A DNA stretch of 64,000 nucleotides from NCBI GenBank assembly GCA_003242895.1, contig QKMY01000017.1, positions 1-64,000 on the forward strand, given 5' to 3'. Made by a program: the position numbers and the translations under genes. Shown here piece by piece: positions 3,421 through 20,841 of this stretch (position 1 is its first letter; each line of letters starts with the position of its first letter). The notes below the pieces were generated by a model. It worked only from the letters and a program-made list of their open reading frames with translations. It had not been told where the DNA came from and ran no database searches. The stretch comes from Candidatus Margulisiibacteriota bacterium (lineage in GTDB: Bacteria; Margulisbacteria; Riflemargulisbacteria; GWF2-39-127).

Positions 3421-5466
3421 CTACGAATCCACAACCTTCTGCAATAACATCTGACCATTACCGTAAAAGGGGACATCGGTCTTACCTAGCGTGCTAGCTG
3501 GCAGTGTAGTCATTTCACTGATATTCTCCATTGGGACAAGGATCGTCTTTGCGCCGTTGTCGGATAAGATGGTAACCTTGTCTGGAAAGTGCAGAGCTCG
3601 TTCCACGGCTCCACCTATGGAGATATTTCCAAGTACTGCCAGTCCGGGTTTAAGGTTCTTGTTATAAATGGCTGAGATAATTGATACATAGACAGCACTG
3701 CCTATACCTCCACTAATATTTGCACCCAGTAGATTAGTAACCTGTATGTTAATATCATAGCCTTTTAAAGAATGTTGTTCGTTAAGAATGGTTTTTTCAT
3801 TTGCCTTGATGTAGTTATAGGTGTTTTTAATATTCTCTTTTACATCGGTATTTGAAGTGCCGGTTATGTTTAGTTTTCCGCTTCCCTGTATCGCAACCGC
3901 CTCGATTTTAACCAGGCAATTATTGTCGCCATCGCTGGTAGCTGTGTAACAAACACCCGGAGGCAAAGCATTTTTCTCGATTAGATTGCTGCCCCGTTCT
4001 TCCGGCAAGCCAACAAATATCTCTTCTTGCGTCTCTTTGTCGATGTATGAAAAATTGGTATCCCAGAACTCCATTCCACCGATTCTCTTTAACTGTTCTT
4101 TAACTCGGCGCCTCATTTCCATGGCTAGAACCAAGTATTCTCTTATATCCTCTTTTGTGAAATTGGCATCTGGATGTAGCAACTTAATGAACCCTGATAC
4201 AATTTTGCGAACCGACTTCGAGTCTCTTTGTTTTAAATGATGCCCAAAAGAGAAATACTTATCAATTGCATCGTTGTAATTGGTTCTGCGCTGATACTTT
4301 AGGTTCTCAGAAAAGAAATCGGTGCTAAAACCAAAATGACCCGTGAAATTGGAAGGGCTAAATTTGGTTATCTCCCAGCCAGGCAAAAACAAATGTATTC
4401 GATCAAGGAAGGCTGTATCTCCGTTGACTTCATCGGATAGCGGACTGAAGAGATGTGAAGTTTGAAGTACGGTTTCAACTGGCTGATTAATGTTACCATT
4501 ATAGATAATTGATGCTTTACCAGAGATCTCGCCACCTTTACCGCCTCGGGAAAATGATCCGGACTCCATGTAGTCTTTCATTAAAGGCTTAGCGTCAGGA
4601 TCTTTAAAAAGTTTATCTGTACTTTCATCAAAGCAGATTGCATCCCATTCGCCTACTGATCCAATTCGGCCGGTGGAATTATTGACAAATAGTTTAGCCA
4701 CAGTACCCTGACCACCTGAGATAAGGAGTGCATACGGTGTAATTTCTTTGTAAATATAGGATTTACCAGAAGACCTGGGTCCTAGTTCAACCATGTTGAA
4801 ATTGGCCTCTACGAGAGGAATTAGCCTCATTAGCAGAAGTGTCTGTTTTCTCGGGTCTAAGCCTTCGCTTGCAGGTTCATAGCCAGCGCTTCGGAGTAAT
4901 AAAGTTTGCCATGCTTCTTTCGTAAACTCTTTTCTTTTTTCAACAATTTTGTTTCCGTCAAACCTTGATAGCTGGATTGGTTTTATATCTTTAACTACGA
5001 AGGGATATACGGTTGAACCTACCGTGATCAAAGGATCGTATTCCATTTCAATAATAGCCCAGATTCCGCCAAGAAGAATTTTTTCATGGCTATTTACCAG
5101 CTCATCACTGATATTGGCTTTCTTAATATTGCTGTTCGATATTGATGCCCAATACCTGTCTTTTTGAGGATCAAGGTCGACTGATATTTTATCTATTATC
5201 TTATAGCGACCATTCTCTCTTATTTTCGATTGAATTAAGGAACTTTCTTCAGGATTTACATAATGATCGTGAAGTATTTTTTTTACTCCATCGATACCTT
5301 CTTTAATTTTAGCTTCATCATCCGTGCTACAGGTGTTGGCTAGCAAATACTCCAGAACAAATGCAGGGACATTAGCTCCGCCTTTGATAATAGCAGCCAA
5401 ATCTTTTCTGACCACAAATCCCTTAAAATGCTCTAAGGTCTGCTTGTCTAAGTCATCTAATATCAT
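3421..5466 (-). CDS. brxL: BREX protein BrxL (Lon-like AAA+ protein)
   Basis: BrxL is a core type 1 BREX component: a ring-forming AAA+ DNA-binding ATPase with a Lon-like C-terminal domain, needed for phage exclusion. The 681 residues include Walker A GPRSSGKSY (about 231-239), Walker B AICFDES (about 275), and a C-terminal Lon-type domain (about 560-681) with the family's GLAVLGNISIGG and NGAKTILVP segments. In place of the Lon DGPSAG serine motif it has SGGIGSA, and the catalytic lysine region is altered, so proteolysis is doubtful. It is the last gene of the operon, 12 bases after pglZ, and the one closest to the tRNA. Length and domain order are normal for the family. Confidence 0.95.
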   Translation of the reverse strand: MILDDLDKQTLEHFKGFVVRKDLAAIIKGGANVPAFVLEYLLANTCSTDDEAKIKEGIDGVKKILHDHYVNPEESSLIQSKIRENGRYKIIDKISVDLDPQKDRYWASISNSNIKKANISDELVNSHEKILLGGIWAIIEMEYDPLITVGSTVYPFVVKDIKPIQLSRFDGNKIVEKRKEFTKEAWQTLLLRSAGYEPASEGLDPRKQTLLLMRLIPLVEANFNMVELGPRSSGKSYIYKEITPYALLISGGQGTVAKLFVNNSTGRIGSVGEWDAICFDESTDKLFKDPDAKPLMKDYMESGSFSRGGKGGEISGKASIIYNGNINQPVETVLQTSHLFSPLSDEVNGDTAFLDRIHLFLPGWEITKFSPSNFTGHFGFSTDFFSENLKYQRRTNYNDAIDKYFSFGHHLKQRDSKSVRKIVSGFIKLLHPDANFTKEDIREYLVLAMEMRRRVKEQLKRIGGMEFWDTNFSYIDKETQEEIFVGLPEERGSNLIEKNALPPGVCYTATSDGDNNCLVKIEAVAIQGSGKLNITGTSNTDVKENIKNTYNYIKANEKTILNEQHSLKGYDINIQVTNLLGANISGGIGSAVYVSIISAIYNKNLKPGLAVLGNISIGGAVERALHFPDKVTILSDNGAKTILVPMENISEMTTLPASTLGKTDVPFYGNGQMLLQKVVDS

Positions 5467-5478
5467 AAATGCCTCCCA

Positions 5479-7716
5479 TTATAATAAACCGCCAAAATCA
5501 CGTGCATCGGATTTCTTTATTGTAACTGTGTCTAATTGTTCCTGAGTTTCTGCGTCTAATAACACGGCCATAACTTCGGCGTTACCACTAAAAGAAAATT
5601 CAGCTGATAACGTCTTCCCTGACTCGATCGTAAGGATGCTGCTGCTGGAATACTGACAATTACCGGAATACAACATGATCTGAACTTTGCGGCTATTAGC
5701 AAACAAATCAGTGCAGGCACCTGCTTGTAATTTGATACCAAACAAGTCGCCGATAACATCTGCTAGTTCTAGTTTATTTATAATAGTCACGTCCAGGTTG
5801 GAGGTCACTGCGCTCTGTTTTTTAAATACAAACTTAGGAATAATTATCTCCTGTGGGGTAAACCCGCCATGAGAAAAGCCATACACGCCTTTTGATTTGA
5901 ATGGTCTATGGCTCTTAGCCGTATAGACATACTTATACTCACCACTTGACCTTTCAAACATCAACCAATCAGTATTGTTTTGTTTGTCGACGGTAAGAAT
6001 GTATCTTTCACTCGGTTTGCATAGTCCAGTGACTGCCGGATCAATTTTATCGGATTCGGTTAAGAGACCGGTTAAAACAAATCCGTGATCGGTTACTAAA
6101 TGGACTTCTTTATATCCCATATTGATTAGTTGCGTGATCTTATCTTGGAGAACAGCTTCGAATTCTGAAAACAATTTGAGAGCACCCTGTTGCAGCTTTT
6201 CACCAGTGCTATCGATGTCTTTGTAAGTCAGCACCAGATAGTCAGCTTGTTCGCCATAGTTCAAATCAGCTAAATTAATAAAGGTTATATTTTTACCGGT
6301 TGATGCAACCAAACTTTTTTCACGGTCCTTGTGTATGGCAAGTACCTCATCATTTCCCAGATACAAAGCACTCATGTTGTGCTCAGTTTCGGAGGGCATA
6401 TCGGCAAGCATTATGTGCTTATCAACTTTAAGTTTTTTCTGTAAAGACGCAGCTATCTGATCGGCGATTTCATAGCGGATGCCATCGCCTACAATCACAG
6501 CAATTCTTGGTTTAGCTTTTTTTAACAAGTTTACCAAATAGCCTTGTTGATCAGATTTGTATTCACCGGCAAATTCAAACCATTTATGCAGCAAGTCCTG
6601 GTTAAGGCTTTCGTAATACTCTTGCAGCGGTCGAATTATTTTTTCTTCCTGTAAAAAACGTGCGTATAGATTGCGGATAGCCCTATCTACTTTAGCAAAG
6701 TGGTTTGTATAAAACTCCACAACTTTACTCAAAGAATTGCAGGAGATTAATGTCTTGCTGTCAAATTCCAGCAGCGTTATTACATCGGACCACCATGAAG
6801 GGATAAACCGTTTTGCTTTTTGACTATTTGCACGGATTTTTACCGATGCCAATTTTTCAGAGATATATACTTTATCCCGAAGGTTCTTTGTAATATCAAT
6901 GATTGCCTTGTGATCCAAAACCTCAAAACAATGCTCAGGGCTTGCGTTCCAGTGTGCAACTGCAAGATTAATGTGATAATTGCTTATATAGTCCACAAGT
7001 GAGCTACAGTAGGTCTCACTATCCATCCAGCGATAATAAAGCTGTAGTAATTCCTTAGAAATATTATTAGCAAGCAAACCATCGAAAAGTTTTTTGACTA
7101 CCTCATCAGCGAGTGTCCGGGGCGGTTTATTCATGTACGGCTGATTTAGCAATTCGAATACTTTCTCTTCAAACAATCTGCGGATATCAGTATCTTTAAC
7201 ACTTAGATATGATTCTGGATCGTGCAGAAAAGGTAACAATTCATCCTCCAGGTTAACCAACTCTTCCAGGTTTTGAAGGATCTTTTTCCACCAGGCGATA
7301 TCTTTTCCTATGCCCATTTTACCTGCGGTTAAAAGTACAGGGCTGTCCATCTGCACTTGTAGGCCTGTGCTTGCAAAAAGTTTCTTCTTGAGCCATTCCT
7401 CGGGGCTGGTGAGATCAAGACACCCATGAGTAAAGCAGTAATCAAATAAGAAGCTCAGCTTTTCCTGTCTGCGGGTTACATAAAATACCACCGGCTTATC
7501 TTTGTATTTAGTTTCAGCCTCATATCGCAAAAACAGCTCTTCTTTGACTGTCTGCCAATCTTCGGTATATGTGCTGTCTGTCTTAATAATGATATAGTTG
7601 CCAGTATCTAATAAAGGCAAAAGAAACCCGCACTGAGCTTTTGGGTCAAGGATTACTACCCTTTTGCGAAGTTTCAGCTGATGTTCAATATCTTCCAAAA
7701 ACCATTTATCAATCAT
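5479..7716 (-). CDS. pglZ: BREX phosphatase-domain protein PglZ
   Basis: PglZ is the hallmark BREX protein, with an alkaline-phosphatase-superfamily fold and an essential but incompletely understood role in the PglX-BrxB-BrxC complex. The protein is about 745 residues. It shows the metal-site segment IAVIVGDGIRYEIA (about 403-416), a second metal-site region HLVTDHGFVL (about 540-549), and the C-terminal SHGGFTPQE motif that closes the PglZ domain. I chose the ATG at 7716 because the longer frame lies inside the upstream nuclease-like gene, and because GGAGG lies about 12 bases upstream. The start overlaps the stop of that gene by 8 bases (ATGATTGA), indicating translational coupling. Confidence 0.94.
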   Translation of the reverse strand: MIDKWFLEDIEHQLKLRKRVVILDPKAQCGFLLPLLDTGNYIIIKTDSTYTEDWQTVKEELFLRYEAETKYKDKPVVFYVTRRQEKLSFLFDYCFTHGCLDLTSPEEWLKKKLFASTGLQVQMDSPVLLTAGKMGIGKDIAWWKKILQNLEELVNLEDELLPFLHDPESYLSVKDTDIRRLFEEKVFELLNQPYMNKPPRTLADEVVKKLFDGLLANNISKELLQLYYRWMDSETYCSSLVDYISNYHINLAVAHWNASPEHCFEVLDHKAIIDITKNLRDKVYISEKLASVKIRANSQKAKRFIPSWWSDVITLLEFDSKTLISCNSLSKVVEFYTNHFAKVDRAIRNLYARFLQEEKIIRPLQEYYESLNQDLLHKWFEFAGEYKSDQQGYLVNLLKKAKPRIAVIVGDGIRYEIADQIAASLQKKLKVDKHIMLADMPSETEHNMSALYLGNDEVLAIHKDREKSLVASTGKNITFINLADLNYGEQADYLVLTYKDIDSTGEKLQQGALKLFSEFEAVLQDKITQLINMGYKEVHLVTDHGFVLTGLLTESDKIDPAVTGLCKPSERYILTVDKQNNTDWLMFERSSGEYKYVYTAKSHRPFKSKGVYGFSHGGFTPQEIIIPKFVFKKQSAVTSNLDVTIINKLELADVIGDLFGIKLQAGACTDLFANSRKVQIMLYSGNCQYSSSSILTIESGKTLSAEFSFSGNAEVMAVLLDAETQEQLDTVTIKKSDARDFGGLL

Positions 7717-8719
7717 TACCGGACTTATCCTCCTGTGCTTCTGCGTTTTCAAACAATTCATGTAGTTTTCTTTGCAGTACTGCTTTAGGTATCAGCTTAG
7801 TTTCATAATCAGCAATCAGAGTAGGACTTATTGATCTGCTTAGTGCATATTCAACTACATCCTGGTCTTTATAAGCGCAAAGCAGAATGCCGATGCTCGG
7901 GTGCTCATGCGCTTTTCTGACATCTCTGTCCAGCGCTTCCAGATAAAACTCCAGTTGCCCCATGTGTTCTGGTCTAAATTTGTCTATCTTAAGCTCAAAA
8001 GCAACCAGGCACTGAAGGGAACGGTGATAAAAAAGAAGATCTACATAAAAATCCTCATTTCCCACCTGCAATCTATAATTCTCGCCCATGAAGGTGAAGT
8101 CTCCACCAAGTTCAAGAATGAAATGTTTAAGATTATGGACTAAGCCTTTCTGTAAATCACGCTCAGAATGCTGTTCCGGTAAGCCGAGAAACTCAAAAAC
8201 ATAGGTGTCTTTAAAAGTATCTGAAATATTTTGTGGTAATTCTCTCATCACAGGTGAAAGATTTGTCTGGGCTATCTTGGTCCGTTCAAAAATACCAGTA
8301 ACGATCTGCCGTTCAAGTTCTCTCTTGGAATATTTTTCTCTGATAGCTAGTTGGAGATAGAACTCTCGTTCCTCCTGGGTCTTGCAAGCTGTTATTATAA
8401 TCAGATTATTTGTCCAGGATAATTGTGTCACCAGTGGAGACAGTTTTGGCTGGTCGTTATATATTTCATAAAACTGCTTCATTCTCCAGAGGTTTCTAAC
8501 ATTAAATCCTTTAATATCAGGCTCGGTTTTCTGGATGTGCTCAGCAAGGCCGGAGACTACACCTTTTCCCCATTCCTCAGAATTTACTTTGCCTGAAATA
8601 TATTTACCTACCTGCCAGTATAGATCAATCATTACATGATTAACATTGCTGATCGCTTTATTGCGAGCCTCACGAATAAGTGTAAGAACTTCGGTAAAAT
8701 TATTAGTGATTATATCTGA
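7709..8719 (-). CDS. YhcG/DUF1016 family PD-(D/E)XK nuclease-like protein
   Basis: This 336-residue protein belongs to the YhcG family: an N-terminal DUF1016 helical domain (about 1-165) with the typical GWGKGVV-like, FNVRNLWRMKQFY and SWTNNL motifs, followed by a PD-(D/E)XK-type domain. In the latter, DFYVDLLFYH gives the Asp (about 225), and AFELK (about 243-247) gives the Glu and Lys of the catalytic motif. Family members are often found in defence islands. Here the gene is embedded in the BREX operon between pglX and pglZ and overlaps pglZ by 8 bases. That suggests it is a fixed accessory, perhaps a restriction effector, which is inference. I chose the ATG at 8719, preceded by GGAG, over the one at 8734. 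Confidence 0.9.
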   Translation of the reverse strand, partial: SDIITNNFTEVLTLIREARNKAISNVNHVMIDLYWQVGKYISGKVNSEEWGKGVVSGLAEHIQKTEPDIKGFNVRNLWRMKQFYEIYNDQPKLSPLVTQLSWTNNLIIITACKTQEEREFYLQLAIREKYSKRELERQIVTGIFERTKIAQTNLSPVMRELPQNISDTFKDTYVFEFLGLPEQHSERDLQKGLVHNLKHFILELGGDFTFMGENYRLQVGNEDFYVDLLFYHRSLQCLVAFELKIDKFRPEHMGQLEFYLEALDRDVRKAHEHPSIGILLCAYKDQDVVEYALSRSISPTLIADYETKLIPKAVLQRKLHELFENAEAQEDKSGND

Positions 8720-8764
8720 CATGATTAACTCCATTTTCTCACAAACTGATTATAAACTATCATC

Positions 8765-11700
8765 CTACCAGTCCGCTTTTAAATATTTATCTAGTTGTTT
8801 TGCGTTGAGCACATCGCAGCGAAGCAAGCCTTTTTTCTGCAAAGGTGCTATGTTTTTACCTACGCCATCATCGAGCTTAGGGTCATAGCCTTCAGCGATG
8901 AGTTCCTCAATTTTTTTGGTAAACTCGGCGATCTCCCTTAGCTGCAAACTGATTTTCTCTTTCTCGCTCTGTGCCTGGGCGGTCTCGCTGTCCTTGAGCT
9001 GGATCTGGCGATACTCCAGGTTCTCTATACGTTTACTGATATAGGCTGTCTTGAGCCTGAATAGGTTATCCCGGCTCCATTTGTAGATGCTAATGTATAC
9101 TTCTAGCCCCTGATTTTCTCCGCTGGATAGATGCCAGATAAAAGGGGTCTTGGGCAGGTACATAAAAAGGTTAAGGTGGTTGCTTAAATCATTAAAGAAG
9201 TTGTGTTCCAGATAATCATTCAGCGGTTTACCAAGCAGACCGTCCATTTGCATAAACTGAGCAGAAGTAAAGCCATTATCCAGGCAATGTTTCTCCAGTC
9301 GATCAAGCAGTCGTGGTTCACCCAATTGACCAACCAGCGGGATGATCCCATCATCGTCGTCTGCTAGTATGGTGCGGATAGCATCTGCCAGAAACTCCAG
9401 AGCAATCTCGGCTGCACGAGCTGAAGGTAATACGTTTGCTTCTTTGAACCAGTACCAGATGTTGATTGGGTTGATCTGGTGACGGATGCAGAATTCTTCC
9501 AGGTCGTTGTTGTTTTGATAGAGTGTGGCAAATTCTGCTTTGATGGCTTGAATTTGCTGGTCTTCAACTGTAGTTATTTCTAAGTTGTTGATGAATTCTT
9601 TACCACGAAGGTCACGAAGATCACGAAGCTTTTTTAATTCATTATTTTCTTCGTGTTCTCTGTGTTCTTCGTGGTGAAATATTTCCAAATAAGCAGCACG
9701 TGCTTCTGCCAATACCGGCAATTGTCCTACAGGTTTGCCCATTTTTGTTTCTACTTGCAGGCGGTCTTCAGGGCTGAGATCGTAGACCTCAAAAATCAGC
9801 TCATTAATGATAGCTTCGTTGAGCAGGACTCGGGTTAATTGAGCGTTTTCGTAATTTAGATAGGAAAACAATCTGTCTTTTAGGGTTGATTCCGTATAAG
9901 CACTAATTGGAGTTTTATTAAAGTTTGTTTCAATTATATGGTAAGAACAGAGGTGTTTTTTAATTTCGATATTTTGTGCCGCTAAATTGGAAATATATTT
10001 CTCAAATTCTTCAGTTGGCTTTACATAAGGGATTCGCTTAATATCGCCTATCTGAGTATGAACTGTTGAATTTAAACAGCTTGCTATATATGAAACTAAA
10101 TTAGTGTTTAATAAAGCAATAGCGTATCCTAAATCTGAAATATCTTTAGGCAAAATTCCAGGACCTGACATATCAAATAGAACATCTTTATCTAAAAATC
10201 TAAAAGCAACACCTTTTGATGTGGCATCTGAATAGGTTATACCTTGCCTGAAAGCAAAATCCTTTGATAAGAGATTGAAATTTTTACTTTTCATTATTTC
10301 TGCGCCATTATTCTTATAGTTAATAACCAGCCAAATATTACCAAACCATTTATTAAATGGGCCGCCTTTTGCATATTTGAACCAATGGGAATTATCTATA
10401 AGATAATTTGAATTTATCTCCCAAAAAAACCTTAATAATCTTTCATTGTCTCCGGTTTTTACACCATTTGTGATATCGGATATATTAGCAAAATTCAAAT
10501 GGCCAAACTTCTCCCGAAACCCATCAGATATCCAATAAATAAACGGCCAGCCTTCGATGATTTTGAGTTTGGATTGGTCGAGAGTGTAAGCTCGTTCGTT
10601 TTTGCGATTATTGATTACATCGTCATAGGCACGCTCTAATGATGCTTTTTTGTGTTTTTCCTGCTGATTGGCGGTAATGTTGAAATATAAACCTGGTACA
10701 TCTTTTTTTGTTTTACAAAGTACATACCAGGTCGCATCCAATAAAATACCAGTGCCAAACAGATTTACTCTGTCTAAGCCATAATCAACCATAAGATCAA
10801 TATGAGTTTTCTCAATCATAAACTTTCTTACTTCTTCAAATGTTTTGATAAACATAAAAGTATGAGGATGAATTAAAGCTACATAGCCAGTTTCGTCAGT
10901 AAGTTCATAGCATCGCTTAATAAAAGTCGCATAGAGATTGGTGTTAAACTTGTAGGGTTTCTTGTAATTATCTTCAATAAAGGTCTTCAACTCTGGCCCA
11001 AAATCACTACCATCGGTATAAGGAGGGTTGGCAACGGCTATATAGTACTTCTGAGTTAATAGCTGCAAAAAGGTAATGGCATCCTGTGTTTTGGTGTTTA
11101 GGAAATTAACACCTTGCTGGGCAGTATTTTGTTCTACAGCCTTTTGCAGGTTAGCAAAAAAGTTCACTCTAAAATTCTCATACGTAGCTAAAGATGGTTC
11201 GGTAAACAGATTTAACTGACTGCCTTGCCACTGCTTAGTCAAATCATGCAAATGTGCGCTTAGCTTTTCTTCGAGTCTAATTAACGAACCAAACTTATAG
11301 GCCTGCTGGAGATCTGACCAGAGGTCCATTACAATTTTTTCTAGTTCGCCGTTTAGAGGTTGACCGTTCTCTTCAAAGAGATGCTTTACTTCACTATAAT
11401 CCGGCAAAAAAAAGTCAGAGCTGACAATATTAAAATGTTCGATTTTGGTGCTACGTTTTTTCCTCTTGGCTTTGATATACAAGCCCAGTTGTGCTAACTG
11501 TATAGCCCGATCATCCAGATCAACTCCGTGTAGGTTGTGCTTGATAATAAGCTCAGGTATTTTGTTTTCATTATAATCTGCCCCATAGTTATCAATCTGA
11601 TCCTGATATAAATCATAAAACAGATCAAAGGCATATAGTAGGAAGTTGCCAGAACCAGTAGCCGGATCAATTAGACGAATCTCGGTAAGTGGCTTTACTT

Positions 11701-12496
11701 CTCTTGTCCTTGTTGAGGGGGCATTGGCTATCTTATATTTTTCTTTGATCTCAGAATCCGGGTACATTTCCAGATACAGCTTACCAAGGCTATTATCTAC
11801 CAGGAATTTTACTACCCAGCGAGGCGTATATACCTGACTCTGTATGCTGACTTTGTTGTATTCGGTTTTATCTCCACTGGCTTTATGAGCTGCTTTTTTT
11901 GCGTTATTATAGCTTTCATATAACCAGCCCAGCACATCATCACTTTGCCAGATGTCAGTTTCTACCTGATTATCAGTATCGATCTGATTGAAGGCACTAA
12001 TAATAGAATTTAGTTCAATAGCAGTTGGCAGTAAATGATATGGATGCTCTAGACTAAATAGTGGAATATCAAAGGAAAGAGCAGCCAATTGATCTTTTAA
12101 GAATCCTATTAATCCTTCCTGCTCAGCGGTTCTCCCATCGGGATTCTGTTCCAGCCAATGACGGTGAGCAAAGGAGCGATCGCCGTGCTGACTCCTGCGG
12201 GTGATGATCTCCGGGTGCAGGGTATGTGCTTCCATGACTTTGAGCGCAGAAATCCGATTGAACAGGGTGAACGAGAGTTCTTCGACCAGTTTTTCGTACC
12301 CACCTTTGACTTTACCGGTTTCAGCTATCAAGACATTAAGAATACCTTCGATTCGTGTACGGTCTGCCTGATAGTCCGCTGGGATAGTAGCTATCGGCTG
12401 CGATATAGTATCAGAGATTCCCATTCTTCCCAGACGATTACGAAAGGCTTTGTCGATGAGTTGTCGTATGTTTTCTGCATGATCTGATAGTTTCAT
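8765..12496 (-). CDS. pglX: BREX adenine-specific DNA methyltransferase PglX
   Basis: PglX methylates an adenine in a non-palindromic host motif, marking self DNA for BREX. The 1243-residue protein has SAM-binding motif I DPATGSGNFLL at 277-287 and catalytic motif IV NPPY at about residue 490, both intact. A specificity-type region and a helical C-terminus follow. At about residues 939-966 a charged low-complexity run (HHEEHREHEE..., then KKLRDLRDLRGK) is encoded by a CACGAAG-type inverted repeat and looks inserted in frame. The start at 12496 has AAGGA upstream and lies just beyond the left arm of the GxxExxY cassette. The frame is uninterrupted, so the protein is probably functional. Confidence 0.95.
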   Translation of the reverse strand: MKLSDHAENIRQLIDKAFRNRLGRMGISDTISQPIATIPADYQADRTRIEGILNVLIAETGKVKGGYEKLVEELSFTLFNRISALKVMEAHTLHPEIITRRSQHGDRSFAHRHWLEQNPDGRTAEQEGLIGFLKDQLAALSFDIPLFSLEHPYHLLPTAIELNSIISAFNQIDTDNQVETDIWQSDDVLGWLYESYNNAKKAAHKASGDKTEYNKVSIQSQVYTPRWVVKFLVDNSLGKLYLEMYPDSEIKEKYKIANAPSTRTREVKPLTEIRLIDPATGSGNFLLYAFDLFYDLYQDQIDNYGADYNENKIPELIIKHNLHGVDLDDRAIQLAQLGLYIKAKRKKRSTKIEHFNIVSSDFFLPDYSEVKHLFEENGQPLNGELEKIVMDLWSDLQQAYKFGSLIRLEEKLSAHLHDLTKQWQGSQLNLFTEPSLATYENFRVNFFANLQKAVEQNTAQQGVNFLNTKTQDAITFLQLLTQKYYIAVANPPYTDGSDFGPELKTFIEDNYKKPYKFNTNLYATFIKRCYELTDETGYVALIHPHTFMFIKTFEEVRKFMIEKTHIDLMVDYGLDRVNLFGTGILLDATWYVLCKTKKDVPGLYFNITANQQEKHKKASLERAYDDVINNRKNERAYTLDQSKLKIIEGWPFIYWISDGFREKFGHLNFANISDITNGVKTGDNERLLRFFWEINSNYLIDNSHWFKYAKGGPFNKWFGNIWLVINYKNNGAEIMKSKNFNLLSKDFAFRQGITYSDATSKGVAFRFLDKDVLFDMSGPGILPKDISDLGYAIALLNTNLVSYIASCLNSTVHTQIGDIKRIPYVKPTEEFEKYISNLAAQNIEIKKHLCSYHIIETNFNKTPISAYTESTLKDRLFSYLNYENAQLTRVLLNEAIINELIFEVYDLSPEDRLQVETKMGKPVGQLPVLAEARAAYLEIFHHEEHREHEENNELKKLRDLRDLRGKEFINNLEITTVEDQQIQAIKAEFATLYQNNNDLEEFCIRHQINPINIWYWFKEANVLPSARAAEIALEFLADAIRTILADDDDGIIPLVGQLGEPRLLDRLEKHCLDNGFTSAQFMQMDGLLGKPLNDYLEHNFFNDLSNHLNLFMYLPKTPFIWHLSSGENQGLEVYISIYKWSRDNLFRLKTAYISKRIENLEYRQIQLKDSETAQAQSEKEKISLQLREIAEFTKKIEELIAEGYDPKLDDGVGKNIAPLQKKGLLRCDVLNAKQLDKYLKADW
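9599..9680. repeat. CACGAAG-type inverted repeat inside pglX
   Basis: The left arm (9599-9628) reads ACCACGAAGGTCACGAAG plus one further CACGAAG unit. The right arm (9649-9680) is its imperfect inverse, reading TTCACCACGAAGAACAC on the minus strand. About 20 AT-rich bases separate them. The arms match those flanking the GxxExxY gene at 12.5-12.96 kb. The element keeps the pglX frame open and supplies about 28 codons. Confidence 0.88.
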
Positions 12497-12505
12497 TTTT
12501 AATCC

Positions 12506-12960
12506 TTTTCACCACGAAGTACACGATGGTCACGAAGCACTGATTTTATAACACAAAACGTTTTATTCCATCTTTTAATAGCTTATTATTAAAATTTAAT
12601 AACAAGCCGACCTTAACCTTACTTAATTTCATATATGTCAAAATCTGTGCATCATAAATAGGATTCATTTTTTCAACACTTTTTAGTTCAACTATTAATG
12701 TATCTTCTATAAATAAATCTATTTTATATCCACATGATAATTTTATATCTTTATACTGAACTGGCAGCTCTGCTTCCATAATGAACTTAATATCAGCTTT
12801 AGCTAACTCATATGCCAAACATTGTTTATAGGTGCTTTCTAATAATCCAGGCCCTAAATTCTTATGCACCTCAATCGCTAAACTGATTACCTTATTAGAT
12901 AATTCATCAAATTCCATGAATATGTTCCTCTTCATATACTTCGTGCTCTTCGTGGTAAAT
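12506..12960. mobile_element. GxxExxY cassette bounded by inverted CACGAAG repeats
   Basis: The left arm (12506-12538) reads TTCACCACGAAGTACACG on the plus strand, followed by a further CACGAAG unit. The right arm (12938-12960) is the inverse, reading TTTACCACGAAGAGCACGAA on the minus strand. The single gene between them encodes a GxxExxY protein. The unit fills the whole space between the brxC stop (12966) and the pglX start (12496), leaving only a few bases on each side. No transposase is present, so mobilisation would have to be in trans or by an unknown route. Calling it mobile is inference from the repeat structure and the second copy in pglX. Confidence 0.6.
12546..12917 (-). CDS. GxxExxY family protein
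   Basis: The 123-residue protein has the eponymous motif in GPGLLESTYKQCLAYEL (about residues 22-38). It also has a PD-(D/E)XK-like core, with Asp in YKIDLFI and Glu-Lys in IVELKSVEK followed by a conserved QILTYMKL helix. The family's function is not established; the nuclease-like fold suggests DNA or RNA cleavage, but this is unproven. I chose the ATG at 12917 because GAGGA precedes it; an in-frame ATG at 12935 is an alternative with a poorer site. As I recall, family members are commonly accompanied by CACGAAG repeats, as here. It is transcribed in the same direction as the BREX genes. Confidence 0.88.
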   Translation of the reverse strand: MEFDELSNKVISLAIEVHKNLGPGLLESTYKQCLAYELAKADIKFIMEAELPVQYKDIKLSCGYKIDLFIEDTLIVELKSVEKMNPIYDAQILTYMKLSKVKVGLLLNFNNKLLKDGIKRFVL

Positions 12961-12965
12961 AATCT

Positions 12966-15900
12966 TCATTCAATAAGCTCAATTTCATCATTATCATTTG
13001 CACTGGATATCTTTTGCATTTCCTGCCCCAGCCAGCTTTTATATGCACTTACTTTGAGCCTTGTTGATGGCATTTTTGTTGTGAACGTCTTTATGCTGGG
13101 TATCGCCTGGTTGCCAGGTTCTGGCTTAGGTGGTGTGGTTCGAATAAGGCCTGATTTCAGGATTTCCAGTTCAGTTTTTTTACTATTATAGAGATCAATA
13201 AACGATAATATTTCCGAATAGGTAAAACGGGAATGTTTGTCTTTTATATCAAAATCAATATCTACTTTGGTTTGTGTTCTTTGCTGGGCATATAGTGAGA
13301 TGTTTTTAGCCTTATCAAGAGCCAGATCATTTAATCCTACTGGCAGTTTAGCAATTTCCTGGATAATAGCTTCAGCCTCCGTTGTGAGGACAGTATATTT
13401 AGCAGCCATGTCTACAACAGCGCATTGTATCAGCTTAAAATATTCATCTTTTATATTTTGAGCACACTGCTGAAGTCCGGCATAGTTGTTGACAACACCG
13501 CTCAGGTATTGCTTGTTAAAGGCAGCCTCTAAATCTGTAATTACAACACTTGGCTGTGCAGACTTGATGAGCTCATCATTTACACCGCTGACAAAAGTTC
13601 GCCATTGCCTTACTTTAGGCAGGTTGGTACGGATAAACTTTTCTATTTTCTCTATAGCCTGAAGTGCGTTTGCATATGACTCTTTACTCTTAAGGAAATT
13701 CTCTGCCTTTTCAATATAATTGGCTTCACTTACTGCCCCGGTAAAACTTCTTAGTGCATCTTTATTAGCTTCTGCATCCGTAAACAGTTGGTCAAAATCT
13801 TTGTTCTGCCTACGCATATCCTCCACTTTGTCACAGAACCTTTTGGCCAGTTCTCGTATAGCACTCACCAGATCAAAATCATTGGTATTCCAGTCTACTT
13901 TTTTTCCAATATGATCTTCACAGTTAAGCCCCTGTAATGCCGTTACAATATCATTTTTCTGTTGCGTGGTCAGGGCTTTACCAATCGCCTTAAAAGAGGC
14001 TTTGCGAAACTCTCTGGCAGCACCGAATATCTCTTTGACCCCATCATCTCGCCAGGAGAACTTTTCACTGGCATTGTGTTTTGCCATTACTTTACCGGCA
14101 CGCATTAGAGCCGCAACAGTCGAAATCACGGTTCCAAAGGCGAACCCTGTTGGTGGCATCTCAAGTTCTTTTTCCAGAGTTGCGCCATCCACAAAGGTAT
14201 TACGTATTTTAAATAAGACCTCTTCGGTAACTTTTAAATTATCTCCAACAAAATTGCCCTGATCATCAAAAAAATGAAAGTCATTTCCATGAAAAAATTG
14301 TTTCAATCTGGTAGCAGTTGCTTCTTTGATCACACTCGTGGCAATAGTATCGCTCAGTTGCGAATCTAATCGTTTGAAATAGATATTTTGTACAACCTGT
14401 CTTTGCTGTCCTTGTAAGGTTGTCTGCCAATTATCCTTATCTAATTGGAACAGGTTATAAAGATAGATTGCCGTAGAATTTTGCAAAGATTCCTCGATCA
14501 GATTCTTTAGCCTTGCTTCTTTTTCAGTTTTGGCAGTAGAAAAACTGCGTAAAATCTGGCCTTCTTCTGATTTTGAATTGCTATATTTTTGTTCCAGATA
14601 AGATGTGCGTTCGATATCGTCGATTAGCCTATCAATTTCTTTAAAAGAAACGTTGTCAGGTACGAGGTAGATCAGGTCTTTGTCATTCTGGTGCTGTACT
14701 CGTAAACCCTCGATATCAGCTATTCGGTCGTCGCTAATATTATAAACACCTTTGAGCCTGAGTTTTAATTGTTTTTGAGTAGGACTTGTGAGTTCATCTT
14801 CATTATCAGTAGTTATGTAAAAGTCATATTGTGAATTGGCATCACTGATCCGGCTGATTGCCTTGATATACAGAGATGCTTTATAAGCTGTTACCAGCTG
14901 CTTCTTTTTAACATAACCTTGGACAGTGAATCCGTTCATTTCATCCAGTAAACGCTGTTCAATATCTGAGGTGATACGGTAGGAATTGTTTGAAAACAGA
15001 AGTACTTTAGCTTCCACCAGATTATTCAATGCCGCCGCAATATCAGCTTCAACCTTGTGATAAGCTTCCGGATCTTTAATAAAGGCTTTTACTATATTGG
15101 TTAGAGTTGCTGGAACGACCTCTGCTCCTACAAGGAAATTAATGGTTTCCAGTAAGTGTCTGCCAGATATCGACGATTGGCTTTCCTTGAGTATAGTCTC
15201 AGCGTTAGTAAATCGATTAACCAGATATGCTGGTGGCTGCAGCTGAGCTTCTTTGGATATTTGCCAGCCTGTTGCCATTTCAAATAAAGAATTATTCTGT
15301 AATTCATGTTTTAAGATGTCATAGGTAGTAATAATCATGCCACGAGCGGCAACTTTGGTAGAGGCATACCCTTTGGTACCAAATAGAAAGTTTTGTAGCA
15401 AATCAAACTGATACTTATAAAACGGATAATAGGTAGCATATAATTCAGGCGTATCTGTTTTTGCAAGGCCCGTGGCAGTTAATGAAGAATGATCACTTAT
15501 CTTACCGGAGTTCTTTTGATAATGATCTTTCAAACTCTGTACCGCAGCTTCGGTTTTATTGAGTAATCGACTTCGAATAATAACATCGACTTCTGTAGCT
15601 TCCAGGTGAATTTTTGTTTTAAACCGGTCGGTTACTTTTGTCAGTTGTGCTTTGCTTACATTTGAATTATTGATTATATCGTCTAGTTTTTCCTGAGCAA
15701 TAGCCATGGTCCAGACTTTACCGCCGAGTGCAGAAAGTGATTCACTGATCCCTTCCAGGTCAAGCAGGTTGAATTTCTTTTGACTAATGGCTTCACTCGC
15801 TTCATCAAAAAGAAAAACAACCTTTTCATCTTTTGATATTTTAAGATAATTCTGCAATTCTTCTTTTAGCCGGGTAGCGCTAAACTGATCAATATCCCGC

Positions 15901-16562
15901 CTTATCGTTTCAAGTAAGCTTGTGTAATCACCTTCACTATTACCTTTTTGCATATAGATTACTTTGATCAGTTTGGCATACTCAACCATACGAGGTCGAA
16001 TGTCAGGCCATTTTTTATCTGAATTCTTAGTAATGAACTCATTAATGTTGATTGTATTATCATTGATAAGCAGTTGGAACAATAAGAAGCCATGCTCATT
16101 TTCTGGCAATTCCAGTGACTTAAGAAAATTCCTAAATAGCGTATAGGCCAGACCTTTAGACGTATCCTGTTTCGCAACATCCAAAAAAACTACTCGGCAG
16201 TTTTCAGCACCCAATCGTGCTATTGAGTTTTTTATTAATGCTTCGTCTCTTAAACCGCTGAATCGCTGCAAGATGCGATCCCGAGCTGGTGTTCCTGCAA
16301 TATTGCGATTGCTGAGCATATACCCAAGCAACTTACCGAAGTAAGATTTGCCTGAACCATAGAAACCAGAGATCCATACCCCGGTCTCCAAAATATTAGA
16401 AGTAAACTTAGTGACAAAATCAGCATACTCTTTGGCCAATCCCTCGGTCACGATATAGTTTTCGATTTCTGCCTTTGTTTCTGCCTCAGACATATCCTCA
16501 AGGTCGATGACATTTTTGATATCTTCCGAGAGGTCGATGGTCAGGATTTCTTTGATCAGCAT
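12966..16562 (-). CDS. brxC: BREX ATPase BrxC
   Basis: BrxC is the large P-loop ATPase of type 1 BREX (DUF499-related), essential for phage defence and part of the assembly with PglX, PglZ and BrxB. The 1198-residue protein has an early Walker A, SGFYGSGKSYFGK (about 65-77), preceded by the family's ETGVWI segment, and a Walker B, KVVFLFDEAS (about 243-252). Long helical and coiled-coil-like stretches fill the C-terminal half. The start is supported by AAGGAG 8 bases upstream. It follows brxB by 20 bases. Length and architecture are normal for the family. Confidence 0.95.
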   Translation of the reverse strand: MLIKEILTIDLSEDIKNVIDLEDMSEAETKAEIENYIVTEGLAKEYADFVTKFTSNILETGVWISGFYGSGKSYFGKLLGYMLSNRNIAGTPARDRILQRFSGLRDEALIKNSIARLGAENCRVVFLDVAKQDTSKGLAYTLFRNFLKSLELPENEHGFLLFQLLINDNTININEFITKNSDKKWPDIRPRMVEYAKLIKVIYMQKGNSEGDYTSLLETIRRDIDQFSATRLKEELQNYLKISKDEKVVFLFDEASEAISQKKFNLLDLEGISESLSALGGKVWTMAIAQEKLDDIINNSNVSKAQLTKVTDRFKTKIHLEATEVDVIIRSRLLNKTEAAVQSLKDHYQKNSGKISDHSSLTATGLAKTDTPELYATYYPFYKYQFDLLQNFLFGTKGYASTKVAARGMIITTYDILKHELQNNSLFEMATGWQISKEAQLQPPAYLVNRFTNAETILKESQSSISGRHLLETINFLVGAEVVPATLTNIVKAFIKDPEAYHKVEADIAAALNNLVEAKVLLFSNNSYRITSDIEQRLLDEMNGFTVQGYVKKKQLVTAYKASLYIKAISRISDANSQYDFYITTDNEDELTSPTQKQLKLRLKGVYNISDDRIADIEGLRVQHQNDKDLIYLVPDNVSFKEIDRLIDDIERTSYLEQKYSNSKSEEGQILRSFSTAKTEKEARLKNLIEESLQNSTAIYLYNLFQLDKDNWQTTLQGQQRQVVQNIYFKRLDSQLSDTIATSVIKEATATRLKQFFHGNDFHFFDDQGNFVGDNLKVTEEVLFKIRNTFVDGATLEKELEMPPTGFAFGTVISTVAALMRAGKVMAKHNASEKFSWRDDGVKEIFGAAREFRKASFKAIGKALTTQQKNDIVTALQGLNCEDHIGKKVDWNTNDFDLVSAIRELAKRFCDKVEDMRRQNKDFDQLFTDAEANKDALRSFTGAVSEANYIEKAENFLKSKESYANALQAIEKIEKFIRTNLPKVRQWRTFVSGVNDELIKSAQPSVVITDLEAAFNKQYLSGVVNNYAGLQQCAQNIKDEYFKLIQCAVVDMAAKYTVLTTEAEAIIQEIAKLPVGLNDLALDKAKNISLYAQQRTQTKVDIDFDIKDKHSRFTYSEILSFIDLYNSKKTELEILKSGLIRTTPPKPEPGNQAIPSIKTFTTKMPSTRLKVSAYKSWLGQEMQKISSANDNDEIELIE

Positions 16563-16582
16563 CTATAGGCTCCTTAGTCCGG

Positions 16583-17140
16583 TTATTCTACAATCATGCA
16601 TCTGTATTTAGATGCGGGTCGTTTTCCTAAAAAAAGTATTGTATCTTTATCTTTTGTTGCAGGATACAAAATAATCAAAGGCAGAGAGGACTTCATTACC
16701 AGTGCATTCTCCATAATATGGATGTTATCTATCCCACTGCCATATAATGCACCGGAGTGAATCATTACAGGTATTTTCTTATTTGACATACTTTCCGCTA
16801 TCTTGTTAATGACAAGGGAAAACAGATCGTTTCCTGATTCTCCTTCTGGGGCTTTAAATATTTGATGCAAAGAGCCTTTTAACAGTTCAAAGCTCTCAGC
16901 TAATTCTTCTTTATTGGACTGAACATAATCATTAAGCAGCTTATTTAAGTCGATGATTTCGTAGGTTTCGTCTGTCATTAGCTTAGTTATGGACTTGATA
17001 TAATCCGATTCTCTGCCAGGTTCGCATAAAATAAGAATGGAATTACCGCCATTGGCATTTAGCTTAATTTCTGACCGATTATTTGCCTCAACAAGTCGCT
17101 TCGCTGATTGAATAACATCATCAGGATTTCGTAAGTTCAT
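16583..17140 (-). CDS. brxB: BREX protein BrxB (DUF1788)
   Basis: BrxB is a small core protein of type 1 BREX that helps assemble the PglX/PglZ complexes; it has no known enzyme activity. The 185-residue product fits the DUF1788 length and has the family-like stretches ILILCEPGRESDYIKSI, YEIIDLNKLL and LPLIILYPAT followed by FLGKRPASKYRCMIV at the C-terminus. I chose the ATG at 17140 (AAGG upstream); it overlaps the end of brxA by 20 bases. Position between brxA and brxC is the canonical order. Confidence 0.92.
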   Translation of the reverse strand: MNLRNPDDVIQSAKRLVEANNRSEIKLNANGGNSILILCEPGRESDYIKSITKLMTDETYEIIDLNKLLNDYVQSNKEELAESFELLKGSLHQIFKAPEGESGNDLFSLVINKIAESMSNKKIPVMIHSGALYGSGIDNIHIMENALVMKSSLPLIILYPATKDKDTILFLGKRPASKYRCMIVE

Positions 17141-17879
17141 TATACATTTCCTTATATGAGATTTGTGTTTCAAGTTTCAGTGAGTTTCCGGTATAACTGA
17201 CATCAAAGTACTTCATCAAATTTTTCTGTAGTACTCTCGCTATAAAGGCTTCTTTATCTAGTAAGCAGTAGGCGAGCCATTTACTTTCAAGTAAGTTTGA
17301 CCTAATTTCCACCTTAGATAGCCAGTACAAAAAAATAATCAATTGCTTATCATCGATATACTTGTGACTAATAGTCTTACTACGCCCACCTTCAAGTAAA
17401 TTGAATTTACTAAGTAATGCCAGGTACTTCCGTGCGGTCACATCGATAGTAGAATCAGACCATTTCTTTAGCGCATCTTCACGTTGTTTAAGGTCCTGAA
17501 TGCATGCAATGACTTCACTCTTTTTGATTGCAATCCGGCCACTGAAGTATGCAGGGAAGTATATACTTTGGTTAAAGTAATCCAATAAATCATTATTGAA
17601 GGATACATTCAAAAAAAGCATCGACAGCGAATTTTCAGAAAGGCCTTCTTTTTCATAAACTGTATTGAATAAGACTTTAATCTCATCGTTTTTGAAGTAA
17701 ACAAGGGTATTTTTTACTGCCCGTTCATATCGTTGCAAAGAACGAGTCGTTTTTAAAGTTGTATTTGAAAGATCATTAGGGCTCGCTGGCGTGTTCCCAC
17801 TGCCTGCATTAATTATGTTAGCAATTATGCTGAGATCCGATATGCTACCTATAACATTTATATCAGTATTGATGTTCAT
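17121..17879 (-). CDS. brxA: BREX protein BrxA (DUF1819)
   Basis: BrxA is a small DNA-binding core protein of type 1 BREX with a NusB-like fold. The product is about 252 residues; the segments KWSDSTIDVTARKYLALLSKFNLLEGG and the final domain with LRxxLxES-like LLESKWLAYCLLDKEAF resemble DUF1819 proteins. I chose the ATG at 17879 with GGGAG about 10 bases upstream, over a TTG at 17927 without a ribosome site. It is the first gene of the BREX operon. The roughly 50 residues before RSLQRYERAV are rich in Asn/Ser and poorly conserved. Confidence 0.88.
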   Translation of the reverse strand: MNINTDINVIGSISDLSIIANIINAGSGNTPASPNDLSNTTLKTTRSLQRYERAVKNTLVYFKNDEIKVLFNTVYEKEGLSENSLSMLFLNVSFNNDLLDYFNQSIYFPAYFSGRIAIKKSEVIACIQDLKQREDALKKWSDSTIDVTARKYLALLSKFNLLEGGRSKTISHKYIDDKQLIIFLYWLSKVEIRSNLLESKWLAYCLLDKEAFIARVLQKNLMKYFDVSYTGNSLKLETQISYKEMYNELTKS

Positions 17880-18602
17880 GAAGTGACCACTCCCGAAATA
17901 CACACTTTGTGATAAAAAAGTCTTCAAGCAGTTAAAGGCATTGCTGCTTCTCGAAAACTTTCATATATATCCCTATCCTTATGAATAAACGGCACTCATA
18001 TTATACCATATTAACATTGTTATTATGGTTACTACGAGAGAAATCTATTTATTATAAAATCTTAATATATAACTGCAAATGTGACTCATTTAAAAATAAT
18101 TGAATTATTAGGTTATTCGATTTTATTTAGAAAACAATGAATTAATATATTCATATTTAAGCATTGCTTCAATTGTCATTCAATTGCAATTTCATCTAAC
18201 CTGTAAATAAATTTACATATATATAGCAGTTTACTGGAAATATTTGACAGAAAAATCAAAGGGATAAATTATCGAAACTTTAAAGTGATGAAAAAATCAC
18301 CGTTTCTTCAGTCATATCAAATATTCTGTCAGCAACAAATTTGGTCTGTTTGTTTTGCCTGTTTCTTGTATTTTTTTTGTCTTTATATTGCGTGTTTTAC
18401 AGGTTTATTAATGTATTTATCTTTAGGTGTGCATATTTGATGTAAGCCTTGGTATTGTTGAATTTGTCGGAAAAATATTATACGATTAATAATAGAAACA
18501 GATCCGGATATTTTCAGCTTTTCAATCAAGAGCGAATCCTATATTGGTAGAAAAGAATGGTATCTAATAAATGTCAGAGCAAATGAGGAGGTTTCGTTAG
18601 AG
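17880..18602. other. AT-rich intergenic region between divergent BREX operon and lipoprotein gene
   Basis: No convincing gene is visible in these 723 bases. The region must hold the leftward promoter of the BREX operon and the rightward promoter of the lipoprotein gene. A TGACAGAA at about 18247 and its inverse TTCTGTCA about 75 bases later, and a small GTGAT/ATCAC hairpin near 18287, are the only structures I noticed. I saw no copy of the tRNA-Ser 3' end that would mark a far attachment site. Confidence 0.5.
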
Positions 18603-19019: not shown

Positions 19020-19055
19020 AGTAGCAGAGTTCCGGCTACGGCGGCTACTTTTTTT
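19020..19055 (+). terminator. Terminator of the lipoprotein gene
   Basis: AGTAGC (19020-19025) pairs with GCTACT (19044-19049), with an inner CCG/CGG pairing, followed by seven T. The stop codon of the convergent secretin gene lies inside the hairpin. Confidence 0.7.
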
Positions 19056-20841
19056 CTTCCTTGTACTCTGATATGTTCAAATTTTCATCGATAATGTGCG
19101 GAGTTATTATAATAATAGTTTCTTTTTTCTCGTCTTTTATATCGGAGCTTTGGAACAAATTTCCTATGAATGGCAGCGACATAAGTATTGGTATTCCGGA
19201 AAGCGTTTTCACTTTTTTATTTCTAATAAGACCGCCGATAACGATGGATTGTCCGTCTTTGACCGTCAGCTCAGTTTGTACTTCGGTTGTGTTCTCTTGT
19301 GGGAGACTGTCATTTATTTGTCCTTCGCTGACTTTTGGTTTTATAATCATATTAATGTATTTTTCTTTTGAGATTTGGGGAGTGAATTCCAGTTGTGTGC
19401 CTACAGTCAAAAATTCTACGCTTTCAATTGTAGACGAATTCGTTATCTGTCTGACGCGGTAACCAAGTTTTTGTCCGGTAATTATTTTGGCAGGTTTGTT
19501 GTTTGTTGCTAGTATTTTTGTGTTTGCCAAAAGATTGGTGTAGATATTTGTTTGTAAGGTTTGCAGCCATGCTTTCATTTCGTCTTTCATGATCATAGCA
19601 TAGAACCCTTTGTCGCTATTTGCATCTGACGCCTGTGATGCCAGGCCTTTAAGGCTAGCGCTGTTATTCTCGTTTTTCTTGTATTGGTATCCTATTGCCG
19701 AAAAGGGATTTTCGCCTGCGCTTACTTCGATTACCCGGGCTTCTACCATAACTTGCTCGGGACGATTATCTATGCTTTCGATAACTTTGGTAACTTCTTC
19801 GATATCTAGCATGTTCCCCATTACCGAAATGGCATTAAGGTCATTATTTACAGAAATACCCATTACATTTGGCATAAGTTCGCTAATGTATTTTTTTGCG
19901 TTTTCAGCTTTGATATAGTTCAATAAAAATGTTTTTGTGTGTTTTCGGTAAGAGACTATAATCGTATTATTTTTTTTTGTCCAGGTATAGCCATTGATTT
20001 TCAGTATTATATCAAGGGCTTCCATTATCGGTATGTTCTTGGCGGAAAAGCTAACGTTCCCGGTAACCATTTTATCTATAAGCATATTGAAATTTCCCTG
20101 AGCAGCGAAGATGTTGAGTATCTGCGTGATTTTTACTTGATTGAGACTAAGATTAATTGTTTTTTTGTTCAAAAGATCATCGTTTTGCAGTTCGGTTTTG
20201 AAAGCCGTAACTTTTGGGATGGCATCGTTTAGCGCTTTTGCATTATGCTGGTCCTTATTATTTGCTGCTGGAATGGAGGCAGATTTTTCTTCGATTATTG
20301 TTGTTATTTTTTTGCTTTTTTCATTTTCTTTATAAACTTCAATAGTTTTTATTGCCGGAATAGTTATTTTTGATTGCAAATATTGGGTTATAGGTATATT
20401 GCCTTTTTTCTGTGACAAACTTAGTGCGGTTTTTCCATAATTATTTTTTTCCTGAATGGTTGCTCCTCTGTTAACAAGCATTCGTACTAAATCAAAGTTT
20501 CCTTTGGCTACGGCTAGCATTAATGGCGTGTTGCCCTCTTTTGTTTTTGCATTAACGTATGCGCCTTTATCGATCAATATTTTTGTGATTTCAATATTCC
20601 CTTGATCGATAGCATGAAATAGCACCGACCAGCCATCTTCATTCCTATATGAAATACTCGTTCCTTGTTTAATGGATTCTTTGGCCTTGTTATTATTTCC
20701 TTGCCAGACATAATTCATCAATTCTATGGCTTTTTCGGTTTTGTCTTCAGGTGCGATAGTTTTGTTAGCGGTATGTGCAAAGTTTGCCAAGGTGATCATT
20801 ACCATAATGGTATATGCAAGTATTAGTTTTTTGTTTGTCAT
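19045..20841 (-). CDS. Outer-membrane secretin (MshL/PilQ-like) with N-terminal ankyrin repeats
   Basis: This 598-residue protein is the outer-membrane channel for a type IV pilus. A signal peptide covers about residues 1-25. Residues about 41-160 form three to four ankyrin repeats (DGWSVLFHAIDQGNIEITKILIDKG; EGNTPLMLAVAKGN; GKTALSLSQKKGN). A linker follows, then the secretin N0/STN domain (about 228-297), an N1-type domain (about 303-370, ending ESIDNRPEQVMVEARVIEVS) and the secretin core with the C-terminal VIGGLIRNK and GIPILMSLPFIGNLF motifs. Ankyrin repeats on a secretin are unusual and would lie in the periplasm. It is the last gene of the pilus operon; AGGAG precedes the ATG. Confidence 0.92.
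   Translation of the reverse strand: MTNKKLILAYTIMVMITLANFAHTANKTIAPEDKTEKAIELMNYVWQGNNNKAKESIKQGTSISYRNEDGWSVLFHAIDQGNIEITKILIDKGAYVNAKTKEGNTPLMLAVAKGNFDLVRMLVNRGATIQEKNNYGKTALSLSQKKGNIPITQYLQSKITIPAIKTIEVYKENEKSKKITTIIEEKSASIPAANNKDQHNAKALNDAIPKVTAFKTELQNDDLLNKKTINLSLNQVKITQILNIFAAQGNFNMLIDKMVTGNVSFSAKNIPIMEALDIILKINGYTWTKKNNTIIVSYRKHTKTFLLNYIKAENAKKYISELMPNVMGISVNNDLNAISVMGNMLDIEEVTKVIESIDNRPEQVMVEARVIEVSAGENPFSAIGYQYKKNENNSASLKGLASQASDANSDKGFYAMIMKDEMKAWLQTLQTNIYTNLLANTKILATNNKPAKIITGQKLGYRVRQITNSSTIESVEFLTVGTQLEFTPQISKEKYINMIIKPKVSEGQINDSLPQENTTEVQTELTVKDGQSIVIGGLIRNKKVKTLSGIPILMSLPFIGNLFQSSDIKDEKKETIIIITPHIIDENLNISEYKEEKK

Follow-up and report, generated by a model that had tools for sequence, protein, structure and literature searches.

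The GxxExxY gene between brxC and pglX probably belongs to a widespread palindromic mobile element, the nuclease of which would recognise its own arms

We analysed a stretch of 64,000 nucleotides of contig QKMY01000017.1 (assembly GCA_003242895.1) from a Candidatus Margulisiibacteriota bacterium, hereafter called the window. The window contains a BREX locus, and the unit found between its brxC and pglX genes is probably a copy of a palindromic mobile element that is widespread and in which a PD-(D/E)XK nuclease would recognise the arms of its own element. This class of element is apparently undescribed. A previous sequence-only reading of the window had proposed that the GxxExxY gene located there is a repeat-bounded cassette, and this idea is right and general: the related BREX loci lack both the gene and the arms, GxxExxY genes of other phyla carry arms of their own, and copies without a gene exist. 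The autonomous copy would consist of a single GxxExxY gene placed between two inverted arms made of units of about 9 nt (C-R-C-N-R-A-G/T-N-N), while gene-less palindromes with the same arms would be non-autonomous derivatives, some of them arising by internal deletion of the gene. The coordinates of the features are given in Table 1.

Table 1. Features of the BREX locus and of the two palindromic copies that it contains (positions in the window)
Feature	Position	Strand	Basis
BREX locus: brxL, pglZ, yhcG-like gene, pglX, (unit), brxC, brxB, brxA	3421-17927	-	family and PADLOC matches
pglX (BREX-1 adenine methyltransferase), open throughout	8765-12496	-	family and PADLOC matches
Gene-less palindromic copy with the same arms	9599-9678		in frame inside pglX; folding, arm score, alignment of relatives
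Whole GxxExxY unit (arm, gene, arm)	12508-12959	-	arm match, CACGAAG excess; absent from related BREX loci
3' arm of the unit	12508-12537	+	+ strand reading TTCACCACGAAGTACACGATGGTCACGAAG; inverted copy of the 5' arm
GxxExxY gene, PD-(D/E)XK nuclease-like, 129 aa	12546-12935	-	ORF, TIGR04256/PF13366, conserved residues
5' arm of the unit	12930-12959	-	- strand reading TTTACCACGAAGAGCACGAAGTATATGAAG, from 12959 to 12930
brxC	12966-16562	-	family and PADLOC matches

The gap between brxC and pglX is filled by a unit of 452 bp, in which an intact GxxExxY gene stands between inverted CACGAAG arms. On the minus strand, the brxC stop is followed by 6 bp, the first arm, the GxxExxY gene, the second arm and 11 bp leading to the pglX start. 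The sequence-only reading had described a gene flanked by such arms and filling the gap, and the excess of the motif and the rarity of the arm match at matched geometry both confirm this description. The window contains 13 CACGAAG motifs where 3.9 are expected; none of 100 shuffles gave as many as 13, and nine of the 13 belong to the gene unit and to a second palindrome located inside pglX. For the gene unit, 0.16% of random placements with matched geometry attain its arm-to-arm score. The unit had been placed at 12506-12960; the unit itself stands, and its ends are slightly moved, to those of Table 1, because the element terminates with TTCACC and TTTACC.

The GxxExxY gene, which starts either from a first ATG at 12935, inside the arm, or from an ATG at 12917, is predicted to encode a small PD-(D/E)XK nuclease. 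Its product matches TIGR04256 (146 bits, cut-off 35) and PF13366 (139 bits, cut-off 22) over its full length, and contains the residues G28, G30, E33, Y36, D73, E83, K85 and Q97, forming the G-x-x-E-x-x-Y and D...ExK motifs; the residue comparison indicates that the catalytic residues are conserved in the GxxExxY family. The window protein is therefore a full-length member of TIGR04256/PF13366 (GxxExxY, PDDEXK_3) with all the conserved residues, and the new part is the link of this family with the arms. PDDEXK_3 was the sole domain found, and the domain search revealed no DDE, HUH, or serine or tyrosine transposase or recombinase domain in the window protein, so that a strand-transfer step would have no known enzyme. 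The structure model was poor (pLDDT 48), and searching solved structures for relatives gave one chance match only. On the protein tree, the window protein groups with the CACGAAG-armed proteins of L044, L094 and L217. The sequence-only reading had presented GxxExxY proteins as PD-(D/E)XK-like with no assigned function, in agreement with the PF13366 match and with our literature search, covering few subscription journals, in which the name was met in passing and neither a function for GxxExxY/PDDEXK_3 nor a description of the arm sequences was found.

The second, gene-less copy with matching arms had also been noticed inside pglX by the sequence-only reading; it is indeed present, and we can add that it is in frame and leaves pglX open. 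This copy of about 79 bp is palindromic over almost all of its length, as also reflected by DNA folding (z = -6.5), with an arm-to-arm score reached by 0.045% of random positions of the same geometry. The pglX frame is open throughout despite the insertion, which adds a net of about 18 aa in a variable loop compared with the relatives, and the palindrome is absent from the orthologues. It is alike the Rickettsia palindromic elements, which are about 150 bp long and are inserted in frame within protein genes (review PMC10969869). However, those have another sequence, and the palindromes described here share their arms with a nuclease gene.

We then consider how the two copies came to lie in the same operon. 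The 3.35-Mb host genome contains one GxxExxY gene, the one of the window, and a search of this genome for zero-mismatch paired CACGAAG units, a check that had been proposed with the cassette idea, returned the gene unit and the pglX copy only; weaker paired-arm matches are background (23 against 23 in the reversed control). Since the two copies are within 3 kb of each other with no others in the genome, both were probably already part of the BREX island when it was acquired from a previous host. The sequence-only reading had concluded that the cassette inserted twice into one defence operon: the two copies are real, but two separate insertions at that place are less likely than a joint arrival with the island, the rest of the genome being devoid of zero-mismatch paired arms and of the gene. 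As for pglX itself, one weak relative was found among 74 genomes of the phylum, and the nearest relatives (50-64% identity) belong to Bacteroidota and other phyla. Comparison of the brxC-pglX junctions, likewise suggested beforehand, showed that neither the GxxExxY gene nor paired arms are present in any of the 12 related pglX loci, and that the gap is about 15-52 bp long in nine of the 11 loci where it was readable. This gap harbors a HicA-HicB pair in L035 (5408-5991) and, in L029 (2490-3191), an orphan ORF of 233 aa that contains an EVK stretch, and is therefore a cargo site, of which the GxxExxY unit is one cargo.

These loci also bear on the proposal, raised in the sequence-only reading, that the GxxExxY gene is a defence accessory, meaning here a nuclease that belongs functionally to the BREX operon. 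The gene is inside the operon and co-oriented with it, and a 2026 survey reported that PD-(D/E)XK enzymes are common auxiliary BREX effectors (PMC12839542). Nevertheless, we consider this role very improbable given that the gene is missing from 12 of 12 related pglX loci, that it has no PADLOC match, that its other copies are mostly found between housekeeping genes, and that the brxC-pglX gap hosts unrelated cargo elsewhere. The GxxExxY gene would look like an auxiliary BREX effector but does not behave like one. Apart from this gene, the region contains a YhcG-like gene (DUF1016, PDDEXK) between pglZ and pglX (window 7709-8734), with a strong PADLOC PDC-S02 match, and, upstream of the BREX locus, a 598-aa ORF (window 19045-20841) matching PADLOC PDC-M72A over part of its length.

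GxxExxY genes were collected from Flavobacteriaceae, Gammaproteobacteria sampled at class level, the phylum of the window, plasmid records and the genomes of the pglX relatives. Inverted arms (score >=12) flank 79% of the 81 complete genes with both flanks, as compared with 6% of mismatched flank pairs, and a first set of 59 genes gave the same arm excess against three controls. Arms are thus found across phyla, and each unit has its own. The other 21% of the 81 genes, without detectable arms at the score threshold of 12, may be old copies, have truncated flanks, or follow a different way of life. The arms are made of tandem units of 8-9 nt, CRCNRA(G/T)NN, often ending with TTMACC, and the ends of the elements are often TT(A/C)ACC...GGT(G/T)AA. 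The gene was found in eight of 72,556 plasmid records and in none of the phages searched; among viral contigs, a single-sequence search with the window protein gave no match, and an alignment search gave one locus out of 2.9 million contigs, which also has arms.

Among the arm-bearing units with co-directional neighbours, the gene is co-oriented with both of them in 42 of 44 cases. The neighbours are mostly housekeeping genes, such as those for CusB/CusA, methionine-synthase parts, ComEC, acyl-CoA carboxylase and asparagine synthase, and in three Gammaproteobacteria the unit is preceded by trpE and, as judged by eye, followed by trpG. The junction between M24 peptidase and methyltransferase genes, identified by family match for L042 and L069 and by sequence likeness for the others, is occupied by RAG-clade units in L042, L062 and L076 and by a RAT-clade unit in L069, the units of either clade having the arm class that goes with it, which suggests that one site has been used repeatedly. 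Some units are old and vertically inherited at one junction. This inheritance, together with the closeness of the arms to the gene on both sides, would be expected if the arms were operators or RNA hairpins controlling the expression of an old, vertically inherited GxxExxY gene. We judge such a regulatory role very unlikely, because the same arms are found in many gene-less copies, one of which is in frame inside pglX. Separately, the GxxExxY domains of L088, L089, L102 and L113 are located inside long open frames, with 229-315 codons between stops, corresponding either to fusions or to mere frame openness.

The class of the arms follows the clade of the protein. On a tree of 81 domains, a branch with an SH-aLRT value of 98 separates 31 of 32 RAG-armed genes from 29 of 30 RAT-armed ones, and the arm label changes three times on the tree as compared with about 25 times when the labels are shuffled. 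The arm motif is correlated with protein distance over all units (Mantel r = 0.55, p < 0.0002) as well as within the RAG units (0.31, p < 0.0002) and within the RAT units (0.36, p = 0.0008). Both arm classes coexist in each of the single genomes G229, G112, G079 and G098, and the arm class can therefore not be due to host composition. A blind test was also performed, with clade profiles trained without Chlamydiota and then searched in this phylum. The gene was detected in 50 of 151 Chlamydiota genomes, in up to 16 copies, many of them decayed, and the arm class was predicted correctly for all 16 units with classifiable arms (13 RAG and 3 RAT). As judged from these sequence comparisons, the co-variation of arm motif and protein points to recognition of the arms by the nuclease that they flank.

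Gene-less copies, the existence of which had been put forward as a check on the cassette idea, are indeed found as palindromes in other genomes. A pattern of three arm units occurs 61 times in G180, 43 in G159, 31 in G255 and 30 in G229, and almost never in the control. In G229, 322 kb of sequence contained 20 palindromes, and in G180, 251 kb contained 29; these totals include one gene-bearing copy and come from stretches chosen around arm hits, so that their density is not a genome average, and none was found in the reversed sequence. Several gene-less copies of G255 have a 25-nt arm identical to that of the gene-bearing copy of this genome. Among 82 palindromes, five contain the full gene and two contain internally deleted GxxExxY remnants. 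The two remnants, of about 289 bp, are from G229, in which a 142-bp palindrome shares their ends; the protein nearest to them is that of L090, the arms of which end in a similar way (CTCTCGC). We also observed nested elements, with a CGCAGATT-type palindrome within a CACGAAG-type one (L150:12552-12819).

Such numbers could also mean that the palindromes are independent REP-like repeats spread by something else, and that the GxxExxY gene tends to sit inside them as a passenger: gene-less palindromes far outnumber the gene-bearing ones, and G078 and G166 are among the few genomes that have arms without a detected gene. We regard this as unlikely, since it explains neither the agreement of arm class with protein clade, seen between phyla as well as inside individual genomes, nor the internally deleted copies.

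We compared congeners to look for element turnover, and several elements of one congener are absent from the other or eroded there. None of these comparisons gave a clean empty site at base resolution, the variable sites being replaced or diverged around the element. A target-site duplication, which the sequence-only reading had advised looking for, was not found at any fixed length, as no offset was enriched over 130 palindromes, and the palindromes shared between genomes, whose copies hardly differ, displayed no compensatory changes. Two other repeats were encountered at variable sites. In G229, a different palindromic element of 167 bp (TAGGAGCCTGTCGGACTT...AAGTCCGACAGGCTCCTA; L233:11872-12039) corresponds to 2 bp in G288, a clean case of presence and absence, and a repeat of about 200 bp (L240:3288-3544), with at least five other copies in G255, is absent from the orthologous site of G289.

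The G229 and G288 genomes are about 94-95% identical, and the seven palindromes that they share (L150, L153, L157, L228 and L233 against L216-L223) are 99.5% identical. Around them, the identity of the flanks decreases from 99.4% at 0-50 bp to 98.6% at 50-100 bp, 96.5% at 100-200 bp and 95% beyond. The 100-bp flanks have a mean identity of 99.0%, which none of 3000 random placements matched, whereas the 33 other gene junctions used for comparison average 91.5% (Mann-Whitney p = 6e-5). This gradient reflects either homing-like co-conversion or an assembly artefact, G288 being highly fragmented and the comparison bearing on one species pair.

If it were homing, the nuclease would cut alleles lacking the gene or carrying a gene-less palindrome, and repair would spread the gene together with its arms and some of the adjacent sequence. 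This reading overlaps with the mobile element that we favor and differs from it in that conversion takes the place of transposition; we hold it as possible but less likely than not. PD-(D/E)XK homing endonucleases are selfish nucleases whose cutting could spread their own gene by repair. Unlike them, the element described here has no intron or intein, and it has its own inverted arms and many gene-less copies. The decrease in identity around the seven shared elements is the expected trace of co-conversion, although short-read merging of related sequences acts over a similar distance, and the more distant pair L042/L062 (80% identical) has no identity gradient. Moreover, new gene-less palindromes would not arise merely from homing into sites that already exist.

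In the mobile element that we favor, we infer the binding and cutting of the arms, their recognition as hairpins, the way in which the element is copied, and the donor. The GxxExxY protein most likely recognises the tandem units of which its arms are made, and these may be extruded as a hairpin or a cruciform. It would cut DNA, and the cut would let host repair copy or gene-convert the element into a new site. The element would settle mostly in short intergenic gaps, usually co-oriented with its neighbours so that read-through could express the gene, and sometimes in frame inside a protein, pglX being an example. A broader proposal, on which our confidence is evenly divided, is that GxxExxY is the sole enzyme of a selfish palindromic DNA found across phyla, spreading by cutting and repair with no known transposase or recombinase, each protein reading a code of tandem 9-nt units in the arms that flank its gene, with arms and protein changing together.

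Two known systems are close to this scheme. Like insertion sequences and MITEs, the elements have terminal inverted repeats matching within each copy, a one-gene autonomous copy and internally deleted non-autonomous copies; here, however, neither a DDE, HUH, serine or tyrosine transposase nor a fixed target-site duplication was found. As in REPIN/RAYT systems, many short palindromes are present per genome, mostly between genes, with one or a few cognate nuclease genes flanked by the same palindromes. RAYTs (TnpA-REP) are Y1 HUH enzymes (PMC8266576, PMC6006769), and REPs carry GTAG/CGTC tags (PMC3733652). By contrast, the protein here is a PD-(D/E)XK one without a Y1 HUH domain, the GTAG/CGTC tag is absent, and 9-nt units in tandem make up the arms, which end with TTMACC.

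Altogether, these results propose a function, which can be tested, for a common PD-(D/E)XK family whose role was not known, and they explain a repeat family present in several bacterial phyla. Because arm class and protein clade match, a recognition code is already at hand to be tested. Genes of this kind located inside defence operons can be miscounted as defence accessories. Finally, if the nuclease does spread the palindromes, DNA would here be mobile by a route that involves no known transposase.
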